The position numbers and the translations under genes were made by a program. The notes beneath the pieces are model-generated. The model searched no databases. It saw nothing but the letters and a program-made list of their open reading frames with translations, and was not told where the DNA came from. A stretch of 64,000 nt of DNA from Geothrix sp. (GTDB taxonomy: Bacteria; Acidobacteriota; Holophagae; Holophagales; Holophagaceae), in assembly GCF_020622065.1 (NCBI RefSeq), contig NZ_JAHRYQ010000002.1, positions 1,175,905 to 1,239,904 of the forward strand, given 5' to 3'. Positions 16,768 through 41,910 of the stretch are shown in pieces; the stretch's first letter is position 1; every line of letters starts with the position of its first letter.

Positions 16768-18030
16768 TTAGCGCGGCCCAGGCGCCCGCGGCGGCACCGA
16801 CAGCACCGGTGGCAACGACGGATCTGGCGACTCCGGCGGGAGGGCCCGGCGCGCGGGGCCACCCGGGGGATCCTTCGGCCGGGCGAAGGCCGAGTCGTAC
16901 AGGGCCTCCCCGTTGGGCAGGTCCTTCAGGCGCTCGGGGTCGGCGAGCACCAGCTCGCGGCGCACCAGGGCCTGGAAGGTGAAGGCGGCGTTCCGGGTCT
17001 CCCGCAGGAAGCGCAGGCGGTTCTCGTCGCCGGTCTCCTGGAACTTCCCCTGGGTGGCCGTCTCCAGGGCCAGGTAGAGGGCGCTGGCGATCCAGGGCTC
17101 CAGGGCATCGCCGCAGCGGCTCCAGGGCAGGATCGGCACCTGGATCTCGACCTCGTACTCCTCGTCCGTGGCCTGCACGAGCAGGCGGCCGTAGTGGGCA
17201 TCCAGCCCCGGCGCGAGCCGGTAGCGGGCCTTGCGGTCGGCCGCGGCCAGCCGCTGGACGAGCGCCTGCAGGCTGGGGGAGTGGGCCAGGGTCCACCGGG
17301 TGACCCTCAGGATCTGGGGGTCCGATCCAGGCGCCAGGGGTAGCCCGCCGGCCTTGGCGGCGGGAGGCGGGGCCGGCACCGCGAAGGGCACGCCCTCAAG
17401 CATGGCGGCGGAGACCCCGGCGGTGACCTCGACGGAGGCCTCGGCGGGCAGCGCGCGGCGCCGGGGGCTGCCCGAGGGATCCCGCGCGGGGGCGAAGCCC
17501 GAGTCGTAGAGCTTCTTCCCGTCCGGCAGGTCCTTCAGGCGCACCGGGTCGGCCAGGGCCAGCTCGCGGCGGACCAGCGCCTGGAAGGCGAAGGCGCCCT
17601 GCATGGTCTCCTTCAGGAACAGCAGGCGGTGCTCATCCCGGGTGGCCCGGAACTTCCCCTTGGCGGCGGTCTCCAGGGCCAGGTAGAGGGCGCTGGCGAT
17701 CCAGGGCTCCAGGGCATCGCCGCAGCGGTTCCAGGCCAGGATGGGCACCTGCACATCCACCTCGTAGTCGGTCTCCGTGGGGAGCACCAGCAGGCGGCCG
17801 TAGTTCGGCTCCAGCCCCGGCACCAGCCGGTAGCGGGCCTTCCGCTCCGCCGCCGCCAGCTGCCGCACCAGCTGCCGCAGGCTGGGCGAGTGGGCCAAGG
17901 ACCACCGGTAGGCCCCCAGCACCCGGGGATCCGAGCCCGGCAACAGGGGCAGCTCCGCCGAGGCTCGGCTGGCCGGGGCGGAGGTCTGAACCGGCACTTG
18001 GGCTGGAGGCGGCGGAAGGGGGAGGAACAT
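16768..18030 (-). CDS. protein of two tandem copies of an unknown domain
   Basis: 420 residues made of two closely related halves, about residues 27-193 and 230-398, joined by an Ala/Pro/Val linker. Each half runs GSDP, RW-LAHSPSL, RKARYRL, GRLLV, CGDALEPWIASALYLALE, KGKF, FQALVRREL, KDLP and YDS. The two are so alike (DNA too) that an intragenic duplication is clear. No signal peptide, membrane helix or known motif is seen. The start follows GGAGGCC. It lies next to the cassette array but is GC-rich like the core genome. Function unknown. Confidence 0.8.
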   Translation of the reverse strand: MFLPLPPPPAQVPVQTSAPASRASAELPLLPGSDPRVLGAYRWSLAHSPSLRQLVRQLAAAERKARYRLVPGLEPNYGRLLVLPTETDYEVDVQVPILAWNRCGDALEPWIASALYLALETAAKGKFRATRDEHRLLFLKETMQGAFAFQALVRRELALADPVRLKDLPDGKKLYDSGFAPARDPSGSPRRRALPAEASVEVTAGVSAAMLEGVPFAVPAPPPAAKAGGLPLAPGSDPQILRVTRWTLAHSPSLQALVQRLAAADRKARYRLAPGLDAHYGRLLVQATDEEYEVEIQVPILPWSRCGDALEPWIASALYLALETATQGKFQETGDENRLRFLRETRNAAFTFQALVRRELVLADPERLKDLPNGEALYDSAFARPKDPPGGPARRALPPESPDPSLPPVLSVPPRAPGPR

Positions 18031-18186
18031 GGGCGAAGGCCTCCAGGTCAGGGGTCTGGAATCAGGCTCTACCTGCGAGATGCAGCAAACCAGACCTGCC
18101 CCATCGAGGTGCCGAACAGGGATGAGGACATCAAGGATTGAAAGGGGGTGAAGACCATGCTGGCGGAGTCCGAGGTGAGTGGAGGG

Positions 18187-18639
18187 TCAGGAAGGCTGGT
18201 TGGCTGAGAATAGATTGATGACGGATTCGCGATTAAACACCACCAAAGAAAGAACACCGAGGGCCGTGCCATACGGAATTTCGAGGCAAGATATACCTGC
18301 AATCACCATGCAGAATGTCCGAGAAGTCCGGCGCTGAATGCGGCGAGCGACCATGAATTTCATGGAAGCCATTGCAATCATGAGAAGGAACATGAAGGCG
18401 CCCATACCAAAGAAAATCCATCCAAATTCTGGCGGTGGAGCACTGTTGGGCCCGTTACTTGGCATGTTTTTGAATGAAGTGATGAACAGTACGCCCATAA
18501 ACATATACATTGCCCCAAAGAGGGAAAAGAATGCGCAAACACCAGCGCTGATGTAGTAGCCCAGGGAGAGCATCTTCAAGTGCTCTGAATCGATGATTGA
18601 TTGACGAGACTCTTCGGAGGGTTGAACTTCGGTTTCCAT
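18187..18639 (-). CDS. small multi-pass membrane protein (array edge)
   Basis: 150 residues. Charged N terminus (about 30 residues), then three or four hydrophobic helices: about 27-55, 75-95 and 112-138. A segment FCMVIAGISCLEIPYGTALG is striking and I believe conserved in unannotated membrane proteins of environmental bacteria, but I do not know a function. Composition is AT-richer than the flanking core genes. It lies at the 3' end of the attC array with no attC after it, so it is either the last cassette with its attC lost or a flanking gene. The 156 bases between it and the duplicated-domain gene hold nothing that I recognise. Confidence 0.75.
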   Translation of the reverse strand: METEVQPSEESRQSIIDSEHLKMLSLGYYISAGVCAFFSLFGAMYMFMGVLFITSFKNMPSNGPNSAPPPEFGWIFFGMGAFMFLLMIAMASMKFMVARRIQRRTSRTFCMVIAGISCLEIPYGTALGVLSLVVFNRESVINLFSANQPS

Positions 18640-18663
18640 TGGATCGATCCTAGGAGTGGGGCT

Positions 18664-18771
18664 TCCTAACGAAAGCAGCTAACTGGCCCTATTGCTGCGG
18701 AACACAGTTGCTTAATTGTTTGAGGACCCTATCGCGCAGCGATAGGGTCCGAGTTGAGCGGAAGGTTAGGC
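18664..18771 (-). other. attC site A (integron recombination site)
   Basis: 108 bases between GTTAGGC core (18765-18771) and TCCTAAC (18664-18670). Outer segments match the other array sites (CTAACTGG and GAGTTGAGCGG). It has its own central hairpin at 18724-18750, 12-bp perfect stem around GGACCCTATCGC. The R-prime side on the minus strand reads GTTAGGA, a departure from GTTRRRY. It is the terminal attC of the array in the minus direction. Confidence 0.8.
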
Positions 18772-19229
18772 CAATCGGGGCGAAGATTGTGAATATGTTC
18801 CCGGCAGCCCCATGCGAACTGGCGAAGAAAATGGACATCTATCGAGAGAATTTTATCTTCATGCACATACCTCCATTCAACAAATGCCTCTCCCAGTTCA
18901 GCAAGGCGCTCTTCGAGAAAGGTGAGCGGAAGAGACAAATTGACATAGGCACCACGAATGAAAAATAGAATTCCCTCTTTGTCCTTGGTTGGTAGTTGGC
19001 TAAATAACTTTAAAAGGTCATGGCCTTTGACATTTGATTTTCCAGAAATTTCTAAAAGGCACTTCAAGTAAAGCTCGACTGAAAATGCGGCGCACACAAT
19101 AAAAGGCTGAACTGCAAACATTGTTGAATCTGGAATGCGAGTGAATTTCTCGATAGCTCCGGCACCGACTGAGAACTGCTTGGCCGAATGGTAAATCAAA
19201 AGGTCTTTAGGTAGTGGTGTAAGAACCAT
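18729..19229 (-). CDS. HEPN-like cassette protein
   Basis: 166 residues, integron cassette gene. The helical middle (FSVELYLKCLLEISGKS, then GHDLLKLF) resembles the HEPN/AbiV-type helical fold often found in toxins and defence proteins. The RxxxxH RNase signature is not clear (only RYVHED). The ATG lies 7 bases after attC B with no strong ribosome-binding site. The stop codon lies inside attC A, a common arrangement in cassettes. AT-richer than core genes. Function is uncertain; a defence or toxin role is inferred. Confidence 0.65.
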   Translation of the reverse strand: MVLTPLPKDLLIYHSAKQFSVGAGAIEKFTRIPDSTMFAVQPFIVCAAFSVELYLKCLLEISGKSNVKGHDLLKLFSQLPTKDKEGILFFIRGAYVNLSLPLTFLEERLAELGEAFVEWRYVHEDKILSIDVHFLRQFAWGCREHIHNLRPDWPNLPLNSDPIAAR

Positions 19230-19236
19230 GGGATTG

Positions 19237-19360
19237 GCCTAACGAATGAAGCTAACCGGACCCGCCTGCACCGAGGCGCTGAACGAAGCCGAGGAAGCGG
19301 AACGAAGAGAAAGAGCGGAAGGCAATGCAGGCGGGGTCCGAGTTGAGCGGAGGGTTAGGC
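19237..19360 (-). other. attC site B (integron recombination site)
   Basis: 124 bases with GCCTAAC at 19237 and GTTAGGC at 19354, inner GCTAACCGGACC and GGTCCGAGTTGAGCGG pairing as the L boxes with one extra base on one side, and a variable centre rich in GAAG/AGCG. It sits between the stop of the membrane cassette gene (19377) and the start of the HEPN-like gene (19229). Confidence 0.92.
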
Positions 19361-19376
19361 CGCGACGCGAACACCT

Positions 19377-19871
19377 TTAGCCACCGATTGGCGCAGTGAT
19401 ACCCGCGTTGGCGAACCAGGCTGCCAATTGGTCGGCGTATTTACCAGATGCAAGGTGAATAGATTTGCCTTCGCTCATATCGTTCAAGGCTAGGGAACGG
19501 CCGATCCATTCAAGCGCTACCGAAGCCTTGGGGCAAACAAGCCGTTGCGTGATGCCAAGGGGAACCAGGATTGGCCCAATGTTGAACCATGTCGTTGGAA
19601 CCTTGTGAAAAACGACTGAATCACCTTCAAGACTAACTTTTCTTGGGAAAGTGCGAATGGCATAGGTGGCGAGGGCAAAATATATCCCTCCGTTGAGGAT
19701 TGCAGTGGCGAGGTGCCAAAGGCTTCGCTGGTTTATGGAGTCATAGAGACCACTAGCCAGCGCTAAGACTGCTCCGAGCTGAAGGAATCTCTTCATGAAC
19801 AGGAGGAGACCAGAGAGCTCGATGACGAACTCTGAGCCATTTGCACCTACCGGCGATTCAGTTGGATTCAT
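19377..19871 (-). CDS. membrane-anchored cassette protein
   Basis: 164 residues. Two hydrophobic helices at about 22-45 and 53-75, followed by a soluble C-terminal part of about 85 residues that is PH-like in strand pattern (EGDSVVFHKVPTTWFNIG), ending in a short basic/Gly tail. No motif was recognised. AT-richer than core genes. It lies between attC C and attC B, close to both, as expected of a single-gene cassette of about 640 bases. Confidence 0.75.
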   Translation of the reverse strand: MNPTESPVGANGSEFVIELSGLLLFMKRFLQLGAVLALASGLYDSINQRSLWHLATAILNGGIYFALATYAIRTFPRKVSLEGDSVVFHKVPTTWFNIGPILVPLGITQRLVCPKASVALEWIGRSLALNDMSEGKSIHLASGKYADQLAAWFANAGITAPIGG

Positions 19872-19876
19872 GAGCT

Positions 19877-20000
19877 GCCTAACGAATGAAGCTAACCGGC
19901 CCCGCCTGCCCCGAGGCGCTGAGCGAAGCCGAGGAAGCGAGAAGCTGAGAGAGAGCGGAAGGCAATGTAGGAGGGGTCCGAGTTGAGCGGAGGGTTAGGC
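19877..20000 (-). other. attC site C (integron recombination site)
   Basis: 124 bases, same plan as site B: GCCTAAC at 19877, GTTAGGC at 19994, inner CTAACCGGCCC and GGTCCGAGTTGAGCGG. By eye it matches sites B and D at most positions, differing mainly in the central stem-loop. Its outer boundary overlaps the stop codon of the HNH gene. Confidence 0.92.
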
Positions 20001-20819
20001 ATCGTTACCCCGGTCTTTAAATATTAAACAATCCAAGACGACAGATGCTCCCCGATTTGGGTATTTAGATAATAAATAACCTTTATCGCAACCAACTTTG
20101 AGTCCTCCCCATTCAAACTCGGGCGACCGCAGGCAAGCAGAAAAATCCTCTTCATCCGCAAAGTGTTCGCGAAGCGCACAATAGAAAGCCACCTCATGCA
20201 ACCCGTCGCCTTCAAAGTGATTAATCAGGTTTAAGGATTTTGCATAATCAAAAAATTCATCATAAAGAATGCTAAGGCCGAATAGTCCGGTTCGAGAGTA
20301 TGAATCGCCTCTTCTCACCATCAAGTCGATCGAATCGATACCCATCTGGGCGCCATGTTTTCGAACCAAAGAAAATATTTGCTGCCCCAGTTCATTACCT
20401 TTGGGTGTATTCCACAGCTTGTTTCCTAAAAGTACTGCCTCTTCCAAAACAAGATTGATTGTTTTATTTGAGGTTTCTTCAACGGGCGGAATCATTCTTG
20501 AACCCGCCACCATTGATTCCAATTTCTCGAATCTTTGCAATAATGTTCCTTTATTATTCGACTTGAGAAAACTTTTATATTCATGAAGCGATTTTTTATC
20601 AATTACACCCGCATGAGCCATCTTATGATGCTTATCACATAGCAGGATCAGGTTTTCAAGCCGATTGTCTACTCTGTTCTCATTAATGTGATGTATTTCT
20701 AGATATGTGTGCTCTGGGCAATGTCTAATTGCACAGTTGTGCCCGGCCTCGACCTTCACCGCCCTAGCTAATTCCGCAGGGATTACCGGTCTCGAGTCGT
20801 CATACTTTTTATCTGGCAC
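19995..20819 (-). CDS. HNH endonuclease cassette gene
   Basis: 274 residues. An N-terminal HNH-type zinc nuclease fold: C29 and C34, the LEIHHI core (H43, H44), DNRLENLILLC (N52, N56, C61) and HH at 64-65. The remainder (about 75-274) is mixed and may bind substrate or a partner. It starts at GTG with GGAGCG upstream. The TAA stop lies within the R box of attC C. Markedly AT-rich codons, unlike the core genome. Restriction or anti-phage activity is a reasonable inference, not a demonstrated one. Confidence 0.88.
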   Translation of the reverse strand: MPDKKYDDSRPVIPAELARAVKVEAGHNCAIRHCPEHTYLEIHHINENRVDNRLENLILLCDKHHKMAHAGVIDKKSLHEYKSFLKSNNKGTLLQRFEKLESMVAGSRMIPPVEETSNKTINLVLEEAVLLGNKLWNTPKGNELGQQIFSLVRKHGAQMGIDSIDLMVRRGDSYSRTGLFGLSILYDEFFDYAKSLNLINHFEGDGLHEVAFYCALREHFADEEDFSACLRSPEFEWGGLKVGCDKGYLLSKYPNRGASVVLDCLIFKDRGNDA

Positions 20820-20837
20820 TGACGCTCCATGCGAGAT

Positions 20838-20961
20838 GCCTAACGAATGAAGCTAACCGGACCCTCCTGCACCGAGGCGCTGAGCGGAGCCGAGGAAGCG
20901 AACTGCTGAGAGAGAGCGGAAGGCAATGCAGGCGGGGTCCGAGTTGAGCTGAGGGTTAGGC
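20838..20961 (-). other. attC site D (integron recombination site)
   Basis: 124 bases: GCCTAAC at 20838, GTTAGGC at 20955, inner CTAACCGGACC and GGTCCGAGTTGAGC. Nearly identical to site B, with differences in the centre and one base in the outer box (GAGCTGAGGG). It overlaps the stop of the DUF1398-type gene. Confidence 0.92.
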
Positions 20962-21378
20962 ATCGCTGGGCTTGGCGCCGGGGAACCATTCAGTATGTTG
21001 ATCTCCCTGACGACCGAAATAGGTCACACGCTGCCCTCGGAGGAAGGCAAGGTAGCCTTGGACTCCGGCAGCGACAGCTCGTTTGGAGAAATCTCGAAAT
21101 TTCTGGCCATGTTGCTGGCTATCAACAATGGCGGCTCGCAGTGAGACCTTGTCGAAGTCTTCTGCGATGGCTGGAAGATCCTCGAAAGAAAGTGGAGCAT
21201 GCGCCGCAGCACCTTCAGCGCTATAGAAGGTAAATGACTTAGAGGCGTAATCCACCAAGTAATACTCCACTCCATTGCCTATGAGACTTGCAACGATCTC
21301 GGAGAACGGCATTGAGCCCGTGAGAGTGGCTTGGGCAGCTTTGAGGACTTGGTTCGCATCCACGGCCTGAACCTCCAT
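20956..21378 (-). CDS. DUF1398-like cassette protein
   Basis: 140 residues (start at the ATG at 21378; a TTG at 21387 would add three). The C-terminal pattern GVQGYLAFLRGQRVTYFG, then TEWFPG resembles the DUF1398 (YbcV-like) family, small soluble proteins of unknown function frequent on mobile DNA. No catalytic residues are known. It is flanked by attC E upstream and attC D at its stop. Composition is close to core genes, unlike the AT-rich HNH cassette next to it, which suggests a different source. Confidence 0.7.
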   Translation of the reverse strand: MEVQAVDANQVLKAAQATLTGSMPFSEIVASLIGNGVEYYLVDYASKSFTFYSAEGAAAHAPLSFEDLPAIAEDFDKVSLRAAIVDSQQHGQKFRDFSKRAVAAGVQGYLAFLRGQRVTYFGRQGDQHTEWFPGAKPSDA

Positions 21379-21399
21379 GGTGAACAATGCTGGGGCGAC

Positions 21400-21465
21400 G
21401 CCTAACGAATGAAGCTAAGCGGACCAGGCGCTTGCGCCTGGGTCCGCTTGAGCGAGAGGTTAGGC
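21400..21465 (-). other. attC site E, 66-base type
   Basis: Compact attC of 66 bases: GCCTAAC, AAGCTAAGCGGACC, a GGCGCTTGCGCC hairpin tip, GGTCCGCTTGAGCG, GTTAGGC. It is the size of the short attC sites of mobile integrons, unlike its 124-base neighbours. It is the attI-proximal attC of those visible. Confidence 0.93.
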
Positions 21466-21713
21466 ACGGCGAGATGCGAGGGAGAGAGAACGCCCGAATT
21501 CGCGGCTCCTAGATTTGAAAGGGAAAGAACAGACCTTCAGAAACTGTGGACCCAAAGGCTTTAAAAGCTGGGCGTGGACCCAGGTTGCCGACCAGGATGG
21601 ATGATGATGACAAGAGTCTTAGTGTTTCTGGGTGGGCCACTGCGAACGGTGTTGGTTCGACGGGCGAACGGTAACTGCGGACAAGCAGGGGTAGAAAGTT
21701 GGTGAGGCCTAAC
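21466..21713 (-). other. candidate cassette without a convincing gene, ending at a lone core site
   Basis: The 498-base gap to the M28 gene begins with about 240 bases upstream of attC E in cassette orientation. No minus-strand ATG frame is present; the best candidate is a 43-codon GTG frame (start near 21637). At 21707-21713 GCCTAAC (minus GTTAGGC) recurs without a partner box, which could be the edge of an ORF-less cassette, a degenerate attC or the core of attI. Confidence 0.5.
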
Positions 21714-21963
21714 TAAGAATTAGACGACTAGCCCCGCCGCGCAGAGAGGTCGCCCAAGATGGTTATGGTTCGGTATAAATATTGAAATAAGCTTGAATGG
21801 ATGATTCCACCAATGGTTATGCAAACCTGAACAAAGGCGGACGAACCCCATTACTCTCGACCGCTCGACAAGCTGGGGCTGAGCCGACATCTCGGGCTCC
21901 TGGGGGGATTCGCCCCAGGATACTCGAAGGATTGGCGGGGGAAGGGTCGGGTTTTCGCGCGAA
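21714..21963. other. non-coding region between the array and the M28 peptidase
   Basis: About 250 bases. It holds a weak stem-loop (CCTGGGG at 21899-21905 pairing with CCCCAGG at 21913-21919), no T-run, possibly the tail of the peptidase transcript, and an AT-rich patch near 21770. An open frame runs through it from the peptidase side but has no domain and no start of its own. No integrase, promoter or attI was recognised. Confidence 0.4.
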
Positions 21964-23574
21964 TTAACGGGCGGACTTGAACGAGGGCTTGGTGGGGGCG
22001 TTGGCCACGGCCTGGCCCAGGTCGAAGGTGAACTGGGTCTGCTGCACCATGCCACGCAGGTCCCAGGTGGGGTCGTACTCGTCGGTCACCTGGTGGTAGC
22101 GCTTGCCGTAGGCGGCGGCCTTGGCCTTCAGGGCGGCGGGATCGGCGCCCAGGTAGTCGCGGCCGCCGCCCACGGAGAGGGCGGGCACGCCGGCCTGCAC
22201 GAAGCTGAAGTGATCGGAGCGGAAGTAGCCGCCGCCCAGGTCGGGGCGCGGGGGGGCCACCGTCAGGCCCGAGGCCTTGGCCACGGCCACGCCCAGGTCG
22301 CCCAGGGTGCTGCGGTTGGCGAAGGGCAGGCCGATGTCCCGGGTGGGGGCCACGAAGTTGAGGCTGTCCAGGTTCAGGTCGGCGGCGGTCTTCGCCAGGG
22401 GCCAGAGGGGATCGGCGGCGTAGGCCTTCGAGCCCAGCAGGCCCTGCTCCTCGGCGCAGACGAAGAGGAACATCTGGCTGCGCTTGGCGGGCGCGTGCAG
22501 GGCCGTCTGGGCCATGGCCAGCAGGGCCGCGCAGCCCGAGGCGTTGTCCACGGCGCCGTTGTAGATGTCGTCGTGATCGGGGTGGGTGTCGGCCGAGGTG
22601 CCGCGGCCCAGGTGATCCCAGTGGGCGGAGTAGATCACCGTCTCGGCCTTCAGGGCCGGGTCGGTGCCGGGCACCACGCCCGCCACATTGAATTGCGTCA
22701 CGGTGCGCACGGCGCTGTGGAGGGTGCCCTTCAGGCGCAGGTCGAGGGCCACGGGGCGGAAGTCGCGGCGCTGGGCCTGGGCCCGCAGGGCGTCCAGCTC
22801 CTGCCCGCCCTGCTGGGCGAGGGCGCGGGCCAGGTCCTCCGTGACCCAGCCCTGGAGGGGCGTGCCCAGGGGGCCCTGGGCCAGCTGGAAGCGCTCGGCG
22901 TCCCAGCCGTTGCGCACCACGGGCCAGCCGTAGCTGGCGGCGGGGGTGGTGTGGACCAGCAGCACGCCCAGGGCGCCGTGCCGGGCGGCCTCCTCGAACT
23001 TGTAGGTCCAGCGGCCCTGGTAGCTGAGGTCGGGGCCGTCGAAGAGGTGGGGCTCGTCGGCGGTGGGCGCGGGCTCGTTCACCAGCATGAGCAGCACCTT
23101 GCCCTTCACATCCAGGCCCTTGTAGTCGTCCCAGCGATCCAGGGCGGAGCTGATGCCGTAGCCCACGAAGACCACGGGGGCGTCGAAGGCCTGCTCGGCC
23201 CGGTCCAGCCCGGCCCCATAGACGATGTCGGTGCCGAAGGCCGGCGTGGCGCAGGCCCCGCCCCCCAGGAAGCTGAGGGTGCTGCGGCCCGTGAGGGTGC
23301 GCAGGCCCAGCAGGGAGACGGGCTGCCGGTAGCTGTCGCCCTTGGCGGGGCGCAGGCCCAGGGCCTCCATCTGGGTCTCCAGGTAGCGCACGGTGAGCTC
23401 GGCCCCGCGCTGGCCCGTGCCGCGGCCCTCCAGCAGGTCATCGGCCAGGAAGGCCAGGTGGGCGCGGAGGGGGGCTTCCTGGATGGTGGCCTGATGGGGG
23501 CCCGCCGGGCTCTGGGCGAGCAGGGCGGCCGGAAGGAGAAGGCCGGCGGCCAAGGAAGGCGGCAGTACACGCAT
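21964..23574 (-). CDS. secreted M28 family zinc aminopeptidase
   Basis: 536 residues. Signal peptide of about 20 residues, then a protease-associated insertion (about 140-250), and the M28 catalytic domain. Zinc ligands are recognisable: His in SAHWDHLG, Asp in VDNASG, Glu pair in CAEEQGLLGS, Asp in LNLDSL and His in YHQVTDEYD. It would act outside the cytoplasm on peptides. The start follows GGGAGCCTCC; a longer in-frame start at 23610 lacks a signal-like fit. It lies next to the cassette array but has the core genome's GC-rich codon use. Confidence 0.93.
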   Translation of the reverse strand: MRVLPPSLAAGLLLPAALLAQSPAGPHQATIQEAPLRAHLAFLADDLLEGRGTGQRGAELTVRYLETQMEALGLRPAKGDSYRQPVSLLGLRTLTGRSTLSFLGGGACATPAFGTDIVYGAGLDRAEQAFDAPVVFVGYGISSALDRWDDYKGLDVKGKVLLMLVNEPAPTADEPHLFDGPDLSYQGRWTYKFEEAARHGALGVLLVHTTPAASYGWPVVRNGWDAERFQLAQGPLGTPLQGWVTEDLARALAQQGGQELDALRAQAQRRDFRPVALDLRLKGTLHSAVRTVTQFNVAGVVPGTDPALKAETVIYSAHWDHLGRGTSADTHPDHDDIYNGAVDNASGCAALLAMAQTALHAPAKRSQMFLFVCAEEQGLLGSKAYAADPLWPLAKTAADLNLDSLNFVAPTRDIGLPFANRSTLGDLGVAVAKASGLTVAPPRPDLGGGYFRSDHFSFVQAGVPALSVGGGRDYLGADPAALKAKAAAYGKRYHQVTDEYDPTWDLRGMVQQTQFTFDLGQAVANAPTKPSFKSAR

Positions 23575-37555: not shown

Positions 37556-39952
37556 ATGGTTCAGTTCAACACCCGAGCCAACGAGATCCTGCTCAAGCTG
37601 GTCTACTACGGGCCGGGTCTTTCGGGTAAGACGACGAATCTGAAGTCGTTGCACGCCATGTGCACCGACACGCAGCGGGGCGAGATGTTCTCCGTGAACA
37701 CCCAGGAGGACCGCACCCTCTTCTTCGACTTGCTGCCCATCAACCTGGGCTACATCTACGGCAACGCCATCCACCTGCAGATCTACACGGTGCCGGGGCA
37801 GGTGCAGTACGACGCCAGCCGCCGGGTGGTGCTGGGCGGGGCCGACGGCGTGGTGTTCGTGGCGGATTCCAGCGAAGCCAAGATGCAGGACAATGTCGAC
37901 TCGCTGTCGAACCTGTACCACAACCTCAACGCGAACCGCCTGAACATCAAGCAGATCCCCTTCGTGCTCCAGTACAACAAGCGGGACCTGCCGGACGCCA
38001 TGGCCGTGGGCGTCATGAACCGGCGCCTGAATTTCCGCAGCGTCCCCTACTTTGAATCCGTGGCCAGCCAGGGCACGGGCGTGCTGGATACCTTCCTGTC
38101 CATCACCCGCGAGACCGTGGGCTACACCTTCAAGAAGTACCACCTGGACAAGAAGATCAAGGACTTCGACGAGATGCTGAATCTCATCGAATCCAATGTT
38201 CGGTCGAGCATGCGGGAGCTGCCGCCTCCTTCCGAGACCGACCCGGCGCCGGCTCCGGCCCCGGACGCGACCGTGCTGCGGCACAGCAATGTCAGCGTCG
38301 CGGACCTGGTGCCCGGGAAGATCGCCGATGCCCAGGAGCTGCTGGAGGATGCCCTCAAGTCGAACATGGAGACGGCACGGCTCTACTCGGAGCTGAAGCA
38401 GGCCAAGGAGGCGCTGGAGAAGAAGAACGAGGAGTCGAGCCAGCTCTACGCCCAGCTCGACCGCGCGAACCAGGACAATCTGAAGACGCGGAAGTACCTC
38501 GAAGGCCTCGTGCAGAACATGGCCGAGGCGGTGATCTCCTTCGCGCCGGATGGCAAGATCCTCACCTGGAACATGGCCGCCGAGCGGATCTTCGGCTACG
38601 CGCGACCCGAGATCGTGGGCCGCAATATGGCGCAGCTCATGCCCGACCACCTGCTGGGCGAGCTGGAGCAGGTTGTCCTGCAGGTGGCCCGGGGCCAGGT
38701 GATCCACGACGCGGCCACCACGCGCATGCGCAAGGGGGGGCTGGCCTTCCCCGCCAGCATCACCTACGCGCCGGTGCGGAGCGCCGATGACCGGATCCTG
38801 GCCTTCTCCGCCATGGTGCGCGACACCAGCCAGACCCAGGCCCTGGAGGATCGGCTGGTCCATTCCCAGCGGCACGAGGCCCTGGGGCGCCTGGTACCCT
38901 CGCTCTTCCACGAGGTGGCCAACCGCCTGACGCCGGTGCTCCTGGAATCCCGCCTCATCGCCGAGGCCGCGATGGAGCCCCATCAGGCTGAACAGGCGAC
39001 CCGGCTGGTGCAGGCCGTGGAGTCCGTGCAGAGCCTGCTGCAGCCGCTCCAGACCGTGCTGAATCCCCCGGCCCCGAACCGGACACTCGTGCCGGTCAAC
39101 CGCCTGGTCCAGGAGGCCGCGGCCCTGGTGGAAGCGAAGGCCCAGCGCATGGACGCCAGCCTGGAGCTGAACCTGGATCCAGGGCTCCGCGAGACGAACC
39201 TGGATGCCACCCTGGTTCTCCAGGCCCTCACCAATCTGCTGCTGAACGGCCTGCAGTCCGTGGCCGGGAGTCCCGCGAAGCGCCTGCGGGTGGCCACCCG
39301 CGCCGCGGGGGGGAACCTGCAGGTGGTGGTCCAGGACTCGGGCCCGGTTCTTTCGGAGGCGCGCCAGGCCGAGCTGTTCGACCCCGCCGCCGCGGCCACG
39401 CCCGAAGCCCTGAGCCTGCCCGTGGTGGACATCATCGCCCGTCAGCACGGGGGGCGCCTCACGGTGCGGAGCCAGGAGGGGCTGGGGAACGCCTATCTGT
39501 TGGAGCTTCCCCTGGAGGCTTCACCGGTGGCCGCCCCCGTCGCATCGGCCGCCCCCGCCCCCGCGGGGTTGGAAGGCCGCCGGGCCCTGGTGGTGGACGA
39601 CGAAACCTTCCTGCTGGAGTGCCTCGTGGATGCCCTCGGCGCCTGGGGCATGGAGGTTTCCTCCAGCGCGCGGGGCGACGAGGCGATCCGGGAGCTGGAG
39701 CAGGGGAACTTCGACCTGATCGTGTCCGACATCCGCATGCCGGGACTCTCCGGCGTCGAGTTGTTCGACTGGTTGCGAACCCAGCGGCCCGCCATGACCA
39801 AGCGCATCCTCTACACCACGGGGGATTCCTTCGACGCCAAGACCCGCGGCTTCCTCGAGGGCAACCAGCTCCCCTACCTGGGTAAACCTTTCGATCTAAA
39901 GCAGCTGAAGCAAAGTCTCGAGCGCCTGATAGGGACTCCGATCGACGCGTGA
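37556..39952 (+). CDS. MglA-type GTPase fused to PAS, histidine-kinase-like and receiver domains
   Basis: 798 residues. Residues 1-195 are an MglA-like small GTPase: P-loop GPGLSGKT at 19-26, TVPGQVQYDASR at 78-89 and NKRD at 141-144. A linker and coiled coil (about 258-320) lead to a PAS domain (about 320-430), a HisKA-like region with HEVANRL (H452), a degenerate HATPase (NLLLNGLQ at 560-567 kept; G1 only DSG, no GxGLGL), and a receiver (DD at 681-682, phosphoacceptor D725, K777). So a polarity-type GTPase is joined to a two-component relay in one chain. No MglB partner adjoins. Start ATG at 37556. Domain order is read directly; signalling activity is inferred. Confidence 0.9.
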   Translation: MVQFNTRANEILLKLVYYGPGLSGKTTNLKSLHAMCTDTQRGEMFSVNTQEDRTLFFDLLPINLGYIYGNAIHLQIYTVPGQVQYDASRRVVLGGADGVVFVADSSEAKMQDNVDSLSNLYHNLNANRLNIKQIPFVLQYNKRDLPDAMAVGVMNRRLNFRSVPYFESVASQGTGVLDTFLSITRETVGYTFKKYHLDKKIKDFDEMLNLIESNVRSSMRELPPPSETDPAPAPAPDATVLRHSNVSVADLVPGKIADAQELLEDALKSNMETARLYSELKQAKEALEKKNEESSQLYAQLDRANQDNLKTRKYLEGLVQNMAEAVISFAPDGKILTWNMAAERIFGYARPEIVGRNMAQLMPDHLLGELEQVVLQVARGQVIHDAATTRMRKGGLAFPASITYAPVRSADDRILAFSAMVRDTSQTQALEDRLVHSQRHEALGRLVPSLFHEVANRLTPVLLESRLIAEAAMEPHQAEQATRLVQAVESVQSLLQPLQTVLNPPAPNRTLVPVNRLVQEAAALVEAKAQRMDASLELNLDPGLRETNLDATLVLQALTNLLLNGLQSVAGSPAKRLRVATRAAGGNLQVVVQDSGPVLSEARQAELFDPAAAATPEALSLPVVDIIARQHGGRLTVRSQEGLGNAYLLELPLEASPVAAPVASAAPAPAGLEGRRALVVDDETFLLECLVDALGAWGMEVSSSARGDEAIRELEQGNFDLIVSDIRMPGLSGVELFDWLRTQRPAMTKRILYTTGDSFDAKTRGFLEGNQLPYLGKPFDLKQLKQSLERLIGTPIDA

Positions 39953-40013
39953 AGGCCCCCCCTGCGGCATAATGGGGGTCGATCTCCACAGCACCCTCAT
40001 CGAGGAGTCCCCC

Positions 40014-41147
40014 ATGCAGCGCAGTTGGGTCTTGGCAGTCATCGTGGGGTCGGGCCTCCTGGCCCAGACGCCCCCTTCCGAACCTCCCCCCGTTCCCGCA
40101 CCGGCTCAGGCGCCGGCCGCCCAGCCCCCCGAGCCCAAGCCCGAGGAGGTCAAGCCCGAGGAGCCGAAGCCTGCGGCGCCGGTGTTGAAGGTCGGCGAGG
40201 CGAAGCCCTTCGACCAGCTCCGCCCCACCCAGCGCAAGCTGGCCTACACCCTCCAGCGTGCGGCCCTGGCGGCCCACGAGCTGGGCTACTACCGCAGCCA
40301 CCCCAAGGCGGTGGAGGTGCGTGAGGTTCTTGAAGCCCTGGTGCAGACCAAGGCCACCCTGCCCGAGAAGGCCCAGGCGGCCATCCCCGGGGTGGAGGCC
40401 TACCTGGTGCGTCTGCGGGCGAACCATGGCCTCTACGATGCGGAGGGGAAGAAGGTCCTCCTGGAAGGCACCTGGAAAGACCTCCAGGCTTCCGCCCGCG
40501 CCGCGGCCAAGCTCGGCGCCCCGGGCCTGGAAGCCCGTCTCCTCAAGGTGAAGGGCCTGCTCTTGGATCCCAAGGTCGATGCCGCCGCGCCCGTCTGGGC
40601 GGAACCTGAAGCGGCCGCCCCCGGGAAGAAGGGCAAGAAGGCTCCGAAGGGCCCCAAGGCTCCCGAGGGCTTCGCAGCCCAGAAGGCCGTGACGGCCCTG
40701 TGGGTGAAGCGGGCCCAGGCCTGGATCGAGAACACACCCCAGGAAGTCGAGGTCAAGGGCGAGAAGAAGATGCGCCGCCTGCCCGACCCTGCCCAGACCA
40801 AGGCCCTGAATGGCCTGCTCATCTGGTTGGAAAACGAGGACCTGGACCTGCTGAGGGATCCTGGTTTCGGCTGGATGGACCTGCGCCGCCTCGGCGCCGA
40901 GCCCGGCATGGGCCTGCTGGCCCATGCCGGCGACATGGCCACGGGCAAGGCTCCCGAGGGCCCCGCTGGGGAACTGACCCTGCTGCCCACGCTGGAACCC
41001 GTGGTCGGCGAGAGCAAGTTCGCCAAGGGCGAGGAGAAGCGGACCGTGCTCACCGAGGTGAAGCAGGGTGCCCCCGCCGCGAGCCTCGCCGTTCAGATGG
41101 CCGCGTTCGAGAAGCAGGGCCGGAGCCGGGAGCTCGAAGTCAAATAG
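40014..41147 (+). CDS. secreted Pro/Glu-rich protein, perhaps related to M49 N-termini
   Basis: 377 residues. Signal peptide (about 17 residues), a proline- and glutamate-rich stretch to about 55, then a helical domain. The segment RPTQRKLAYTLQRAALAAHELGYY and HPKAVEVREVLEAL resembles the N-terminal part of dipeptidyl-peptidase III relatives, but no HEXXGH zinc motif is present, so catalysis is not expected. GAGGAGTCCCCC precedes the ATG. It ends ahead of a strong shared terminator. Confidence 0.7.
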   Translation: MQRSWVLAVIVGSGLLAQTPPSEPPPVPAPAQAPAAQPPEPKPEEVKPEEPKPAAPVLKVGEAKPFDQLRPTQRKLAYTLQRAALAAHELGYYRSHPKAVEVREVLEALVQTKATLPEKAQAAIPGVEAYLVRLRANHGLYDAEGKKVLLEGTWKDLQASARAAAKLGAPGLEARLLKVKGLLLDPKVDAAAPVWAEPEAAAPGKKGKKAPKGPKAPEGFAAQKAVTALWVKRAQAWIENTPQEVEVKGEKKMRRLPDPAQTKALNGLLIWLENEDLDLLRDPGFGWMDLRRLGAEPGMGLLAHAGDMATGKAPEGPAGELTLLPTLEPVVGESKFAKGEEKRTVLTEVKQGAPAASLAVQMAAFEKQGRSRELEVK

Positions 41148-41161
41148 GGTTTCCCGCCTGG

Positions 41162-41191
41162 AAAAACGGGGCGCGATTGCGCCCCGTTTTT
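41162..41191. terminator. bidirectional intrinsic terminator
   Basis: AAAAACGGGGCGC, four-base loop, GCGCCCCGTTTTT: a perfect stem with T-runs on both strands. It separates the secreted-protein gene from the convergent OmpR-type regulator gene, serving both. Confidence 0.93.
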
Positions 41192-41910
41192 CATTCCTCG
41201 CCCTTGCGCTGCTTCCCTTCGGGATCGAACTGGTAGCCCACGCTGCGGATGGTGTGGACCCAGCGGGGGTGGTGGGGATCCTGCTCCATGACCCGGCGGA
41301 TGCGGACGATGAAGTTGTCCACGGTGCGGCTGGTGGGATAGGCGTCCTCGCCCCACACTTTGTCCAGGATGTCCGTGCGGCTCACCACCTGGCCCGGCCG
41401 CTCCATGAGCAGCTTGAGGATCATGCTTTCCTTCACGCCCAGCTGGAAGGGGCCCTGGGGCCCTTCGCCGCAGAAGTTGTCGAAGTCCACCCAGTGGCTT
41501 CCGAAGACCTGGCGGCTGCTGATCTCCCGGCTCTTGTACCAGGACTCGCGGCGCAGGATGGCCCGCACGCGCAGCAGCAGCTCGCGCACCTGGAAGGGCT
41601 TGCCCAGGTAGTCGTCGGCCCCGGTCTCGAAGCCGTGGACGCGGTCGTCGTCCGTGTTCTTGGCGGTGAGGAAGAGGATGGGCGTGAAGTTCTTGGCCTC
41701 GCGCACCTTCTCGCAGATGGTGAAGCCGTCCATGCCCGGCAGCATCACATCGAGGATCACCAGATCGAAGGTCTCGGCGAGGATCTGCTTCAGGGCCTGA
41801 TCGCCCCGGGGGATCCAGGTGCAGGCCAGGCCCTCCAGTTCCAGGTTGAGCTTGATGCCCTCGGCGAGACTGAGCTCGTCTTCCACCAGCAGGATCTTGG
41901 GCTCGGGCAT
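41191..41910 (-). CDS. OmpR/PhoB-family response regulator
   Basis: 239 residues. Receiver 1-120 (VEDE, phosphoacceptor Asp in LVILDVMLPG, Lys in LGKPFQ) and winged-helix DNA-binding domain with RTVDNFIVRIRRVM and IRSVGYQF at the end. Between them an insertion (about 125-155) is longer than usual. No histidine kinase adjoins, so it is an orphan at this locus. Divergent from the glycosyltransferase, 45 bases apart. Confidence 0.93.
   Translation of the reverse strand: MPEPKILLVEDELSLAEGIKLNLELEGLACTWIPRGDQALKQILAETFDLVILDVMLPGMDGFTICEKVREAKNFTPILFLTAKNTDDDRVHGFETGADDYLGKPFQVRELLLRVRAILRRESWYKSREISSRQVFGSHWVDFDNFCGEGPQGPFQLGVKESMILKLLMERPGQVVSRTDILDKVWGEDAYPTSRTVDNFIVRIRRVMEQDPHHPRWVHTIRSVGYQFDPEGKQRKGEE

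Follow-up and report, generated by a model that had tools for sequence, protein, structure and literature searches.

Introduction

MglA is a Ras-like switch protein that controls cell polarity and pili elsewhere. The route by which two-component signals arrive at MglA-type GTPases is known for few systems and, to our knowledge, always runs via separate proteins. The gene at 37556-39952 (+) of the window, the whole 64,000-nucleotide stretch of DNA from the soil bacterium Geothrix that was analysed, raises the question of how such signalling is organised when an MglA-type GTPase, a sensor, a kinase-like module, and a receiver share one chain. The source genome is complete, 3.35 Mb in size and of the Geothrix type, with G. 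fermentans, G. rubra, and G. limicola among its relatives.

Domain architecture of the fusion protein

The gene is one intact open reading frame that begins with an ATG at 37556 and encodes 798 aa in the order MglA-type GTPase, long helix, PAS, DHp, degenerate CA lobe, and receiver. Pfam models match Ras/Arf at residues 66-186, PAS at 315-423 (8e-14), HATPase_c at 550-654 (3e-11), and Response_reg at 678-788 (2e-18). Together with structure matches, motifs, and alignment, these matches delimit the GTPase domain at aa 1-190 (37556..38125), the PAS domain at aa 313-430 (38492..38845; Pfam, AlphaFold2), the DHp (HisKA-like) helices at aa 431-515 (38846..39100; alignment), which carry H452-E453-V-A-N456, the degenerate CA (HATPase_c) lobe at aa 516-656 (39101..39523; Pfam, alignment, AlphaFold2), and the receiver at aa 675-798 (39578..39949; Pfam, alignment), all on the plus strand.

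The AlphaFold2 model, built from a 36-sequence alignment, has a mean pLDDT of 80.5 and a pTM of 0.41, at which the folds of the PAS, CA, and receiver domains are confident and the placement of the domains relative to one another is not reliable. The joint between the GTPase and the PAS domain, at aa 259-321 (38330..38518, +), is modelled as one continuous 63-residue helix or coiled coil, with block pLDDT values that lie mostly at 76-86 and reach about 90 where it ends, and its mean identity among receiver-bearing orthologues is 81%. The C-terminal 590 residues find NtrB/ZraS/AtoS/FixL-type kinases and receivers as matches, and Foldseek relates the DHp-CA part of the model to HK853 and ZraS. 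The PAS-DHp-CA-receiver unit is of NtrB/ZraS-like hybrid-kinase origin, and the Holophagaceae protein unites in one chain two signalling systems that normally reside on separate proteins. The open reading frame, the Pfam matches, and the conserved full-length orthologues bear out the preliminary description, which had read the gene as a GTPase joined to PAS, kinase-like, and receiver domains; the domain search and structure prediction that it had proposed likewise support the fusion, through the Pfam order and the MglA fold.

The MglA-type GTPase domain

The N-terminal 190 residues match the Myxococcus and Thermus MglA structures with E values of 1e-50 to 1e-55, at about 48% identity to the Myxococcus structure, and Foldseek aligns the GTPase part of the model with MglA structures at a TM score of 0.84-0.88. 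The features by which the MglA family is recognised within a Ras-like fold are all present, namely the P-loop GPGLSGKT (G24, K25, T26), the intrinsic arginine and switch threonine Arg53-Thr54 (DRTLFF), the catalytic Gln82 (TVPGQ), and NKRD (141-144). All catalytic and binding residues examined are invariant in 67/67 unique orthologues, including the P-loop, which had been described as intact.

In Myxococcus xanthus or Thermus thermophilus, MglA stands alone, is about 195 aa long, and acts with MglB, whereas the GTPase here forms the N-terminus of a 798-aa protein, well beyond the single-domain length of at most 240 aa adopted in a survey of the family (PMC4316618). No MglB (roadblock) gene lies beside the fusion gene, and the roadblock genes of the genome are located at C2:766130 and C2:1307733. 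Three other MglA-like proteins are encoded in the genome, one of which is stand-alone and adjoins an MglB gene, while two bear C-terminal extensions; given this separate MglA/MglB pair, the fusion is an addition rather than a replacement. The C-termini of the two extended proteins (L075:5689-6561 and L076:4203-5564; G000:C2:677884 and G000:C1:1882585) are Pro/Ala-rich and unannotated.

The kinase-like module

In the window protein, the His452-Glu453 pair of the H box is intact and an N box is present. Among the 48 receiver-bearing orthologues, position 452 is His in 35, a group that takes in the Geothrix-type sequences, and Asn in 13. This split is clean in the full-length tree, from which its polarity was judged because the backbone of the tree built on GTPase and PAS is weakly supported. 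The ATP-binding lobe is degenerate, as the preliminary description had stated: the G1 box reads DSGPV, with its second Gly lost in 48/48 receiver-bearing orthologues, the G2 box reads ALSL, with Ser620 as a further change in the window species, and the N-box Asn564 has been lost in 18/48. The full set of intact N, G1 (DxGxG), and G2 (GxGLGL) boxes that marks an active hybrid kinase is therefore absent. The CA lobe is the fastest-evolving domain, yet it remains under purifying selection (dN/dS about 0.42) and is modelled with a pLDDT of about 94-96.

Because the active site is eroded across the orthologues, the module is read as a pseudokinase that probably no longer makes phosphate. The physical fusion is borne out, but the proposal that GTPase state is tied directly to phosphorelay output assumes a working kinase, which the comparative data make improbable. 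The His-Glu pair of the H box is intact in nearly all sampled Geothrix sequences, given which some phosphotransfer role may persist in this genus.

The receiver and Asn456

The residues of a phosphorylatable receiver (DD, D, T, K) are found as D681, D682, D725, T754, and K777 and are invariant in 48/48 receiver-bearing orthologues, in keeping with the earlier observation that the receiver Asp is intact. HisKA kinases use the acidic residue that follows the His for kinase activity; the Asn at His+4 is required for their phosphatase activity alone (PMC3510030). Asn456 occupies the His+4 position, equivalent to CrdS-N375, and would be the phosphatase-side residue of the module. All receiver-bearing proteins keep it (48/48), the 13 without His452 among them, and in the receiver-less lineage g11 it is replaced by Ala or Ser in 5/5 proteins. 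Across aa 1-656 (GTPase, coil, PAS, DHp, and CA), 201 positions are invariant among the receiver-bearing proteins, and only two of these differ in each of the five g11 proteins, namely N456 to A/S and, conservatively, L318 to I/V.

Lineage g11 is nested among receiver-bearing genes, and no relic of a receiver was found behind its receiver-less genes, where the next gene starts directly after a clean deletion; the receiver was therefore most likely lost in this lineage. The concurrent loss of Asn456 and the receiver suggests a link to a phosphatase role and is only suggestive, as it reflects one loss event in one lineage and was noticed by inspecting the alignment. In another family, f3 (Acanthopleuribacter, Sulfidibacter), the absence of a receiver is accompanied by an eroded H box. 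Shortly behind the receiver-less fusion gene, f3 loci carry a gene for a single-domain receiver (L131:12552-12959, L133:13041-13448); considered as a partner in trans, this receiver was set aside and kept as a lead, with the full acidic pair missing and an apparent Glu at the acceptor site.

Proposed mechanism and alternative readings

We infer, with a probability of roughly 0.45, that the protein is a pseudokinase which dephosphorylates or reads its trans-phosphorylated receiver and is coupled to the MglA-type GTPase. The kinase module would make no phosphate, and Asp725 of the receiver would obtain its phosphate in trans from another kinase, or else from acetyl phosphate. The DHp helices would dock the receiver of the same chain, with Asn456 removing or reading its phosphate, and a signal through the PAS domain and the long helix would then determine which nucleotide the GTPase carries, which partners it binds, or where it sits. 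Since the kinase is probably dead, it is more likely that the receiver gets its phosphate in trans and serves as the input, and that the GTPase provides the output or the address. Of possible downstream targets, the machinery of type IV pili would be the likeliest, by analogy with Myxococcus MglA.

The conservation of Asn456 could also be preserved by receiver docking, which would suit a module without kinase or phosphatase activity that senses a phosphorylated receiver, its own or another, and signals backwards via the PAS domain and helix to the GTPase. Caulobacter DivL provides the parallel: it is a repurposed protein with a PAS domain and a DHp-CA fold that has lost the acceptor His and shows neither activity, engages DivK~P via its usual docking surface, and makes the signal run in reverse (PMC4211667). 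Replacement of the acceptor His in part of the fusion family, with the fold kept in AlphaFold2, resembles this situation, although the N, G1, F, and G2 boxes are preserved in DivL, a Tyr occupies its His site, and it has neither a GTPase nor a fused receiver (PMC4211667). Asn456 is nevertheless the single DHp residue that is invariant with the receiver and lost without it, a pattern that fits catalysis better, and the DivL-like reading appears rather doubtful.

If the protein were instead an active hybrid kinase in Geothrix, His452 would autophosphorylate and hand its phosphate on to Asp725, under regulation by the GTPase. The retention of His452, Glu453, and the N box in the window protein, the presence of His452 in 35/48 orthologues, and the occurrence of intact MglA-GAF-HisKA-HATPase fusions elsewhere in Acidobacteriota are in its favour, but the universal loss of the second G1 Gly, the degenerate G2 box with the extra Ser620 of the window species, and a CA lobe that is the weakest-constrained domain make it unlikely.

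Neighbouring genes

A gene for a 391-aa secreted-looking protein (39972..41147, +) starts 19 bp downstream of the fusion gene, is possibly co-transcribed with it, and has counterparts behind most fusion orthologues. No Pfam model matches the window copy significantly, and a longer homologue in branch L127 matches M49 (dipeptidyl-peptidase III). It is followed by the gene for an OmpR-type response regulator (41191..41910, -), a candidate partner that is syntenic with the fusion and retains this position at most Holophagaceae loci. Its copies within Geothrix are mostly 92-96% identical, and its conservation lies above that of most neighbours. Elsewhere in the window, the stretch 18000-22000 has a low GC content (about 51% versus about 70%) and short minus-strand ORFs (HEPN-like, HNH-like, DUF1398); it holds no rRNA and looks like a foreign island.

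Another protein, for example the OmpR-type regulator, could be the real output, the GTPase then being a mere address tag that places the PAS-pseudokinase part next to this target. The regulator's synteny in most Holophagaceae loci and the lack of an adjoining kinase gene in the gene list would be compatible with such an arrangement, but the neighbourhood says little because the same block also holds the unrelated housekeeping genes dxr, cdsA, uppS, and dnaK, and the invariance of the GTPase catalytic residues is at odds with a passive tag, which renders this reading improbable.

Distribution and selection

Of the 47 genomes sampled from the genus, 43 showed the fusion chain, at full length in 40 and partly in 3; two of the 4 genomes without it are at least 95% complete. 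It is present in most of the family Holophagaceae at one syntenic place beside uppS, adjoining uppS-cdsA-dxr-rseP throughout the family. The median dN/dS, estimated by simple pairwise counts and therefore rough, is 0.07 for the GTPase, 0.27 for the receiver, and 0.42 for the CA lobe, with every domain below 0.45. A frame error between the domains, which the preliminary description had named as a possible objection, is excluded by this presence across the genus, single syntenic place, and purifying selection, and a sequencing or assembly artefact or decaying gene, in favour of which nothing was found, is rejected as hardly credible for a chain that is open in other genera as well.

Among 247 genomes sampled evenly across the phylum Acidobacteriota, matches to the GTPase-PAS part (E below 1e-70) were obtained in 25, all of class Holophagae and none of other classes; PAS-type MglA fusions were thus found only in this class. 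Most of family f1 has the full chain, while its lineage g11 lacks the receiver and two branches (L127 and L048/L134) have GTPase-PAS alone, as does the sister family f2; f3 has GTPase-PAS-kinase-like proteins. The search for plasmid relatives returned generic PAS-kinase matches, none covering 80%.

A possible link to type IV pili

At three loci of family f2 (L140:6437-11224, L149:7834-11239, and L055:281-5221), an N-methyl pilin gene lies 14-17 bp upstream of the GTPase-PAS gene. In L140 the pilin gene is preceded by PilB-like (T2SSE+MshEN) and PilC-like (T2SSF) genes, in L149 an FHA-T2SSE gene lies upstream, and in L055 a PilC-like gene is found two genes upstream. No pilus genes were found near the fusion gene in Geothrix, and the f2 protein is a related, shorter protein of another family; five T2SSE-type ATPases and several CheW domains are encoded in the source genome. 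MglA of Myxococcus is reported to activate type IV pili via SgmX (PMC7668184). On the basis of the f2 pilin-gene context and this role of Myxococcus MglA, our best guess is that the fusion would act on type IV pili or polarity. As a tentative possibility, the protein might be pictured as controlling polarity or pili from one polypeptide that combines RomR-type input, a reset enzyme, and MglA-type output: its kinase-dead DHp would be the phosphatase or reader of its own receiver, and the phosphorylation state would be converted directly into GTPase state.

Comparison with known systems

The nearest functional parallel is RomR, the receiver-bearing regulator that, with RomX, is reported to serve as GEF partner of MglA, so that a receiver acts on MglA (PMC9481161, PMC6785124). 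RomR is a separate protein with an N-terminal receiver, an unstructured linker, and a Glu-rich C-terminal domain (PMC3441718), whereas the receiver of the fusion lies in cis at the C-terminal end of the chain, with the PAS domain and probable pseudokinase between it and the GTPase. Actinobacterial conservons (CvnA-D) also combine a kinase-like protein and an MglA-family GTPase in one system (PMC4316618, PMC13343842), but as four separate proteins that include an MglB homologue and a membrane-bound kinase, with no receiver in cis; of the conservon gene set (kinase, roadblock, unknown-function protein, and GTPase), no roadblock or separate GTPase gene stands beside the fusion. NtrB/ZraS/AtoS/FixL-type and hybrid kinases, the best family matches, share the PAS-DHp-CA(-receiver) order, and the fusion differs from these kinases in its eroded ATP site, unconserved acceptor His, and N-terminal GTPase.

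MglA-GAF-HisKA-HATPase fusions of other Acidobacteriota likewise join a GTPase, a sensor, and a kinase in one chain, but they have GAF in place of PAS, no receiver was seen in them, and several (L057 and L059 among them) have intact H, N, G1, and G2 boxes. MglA-type GTPases joined to GAF and/or HisKA-HATPase were seen at L057, L059, L073, L058/L143, L063, L067, L154, and L158 (Acidobacteriota and one Aminicenantes MAG). GAF-type and PAS-type GTPases form one broader clade apart from stand-alone MglA in a tree of uneven internal support, and the existence of both types makes the MglA-sensor fusion a recurring theme, within which the window protein belongs to a branch with an eroded kinase and a kept receiver.

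The exact architecture is undescribed in the open-access literature searched, which also yielded no characterised fused homologue with another role, a further possible objection of the preliminary description, no description of the GAF/HisKA-type fusions, and nothing specific on MglA-kinase fusions or on MglA of Geothrix. The standard survey of small Ras-like GTPases of prokaryotes left out sequences longer than 240 aa (PMC4316618), a limit by which it missed fused GTPases of this sort, examples of which occur in many Acidobacteriota.

Significance

With a GTPase, a probable pseudokinase, and a receiver naturally fused, the coupling of phosphate to GTPase could be measured directly in one defined protein. 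The family is itself a natural experiment, in which His changed to Asn with Asn456 kept and the receiver was lost together with Asn456, and this makes a phosphatase-only reading of the module testable.
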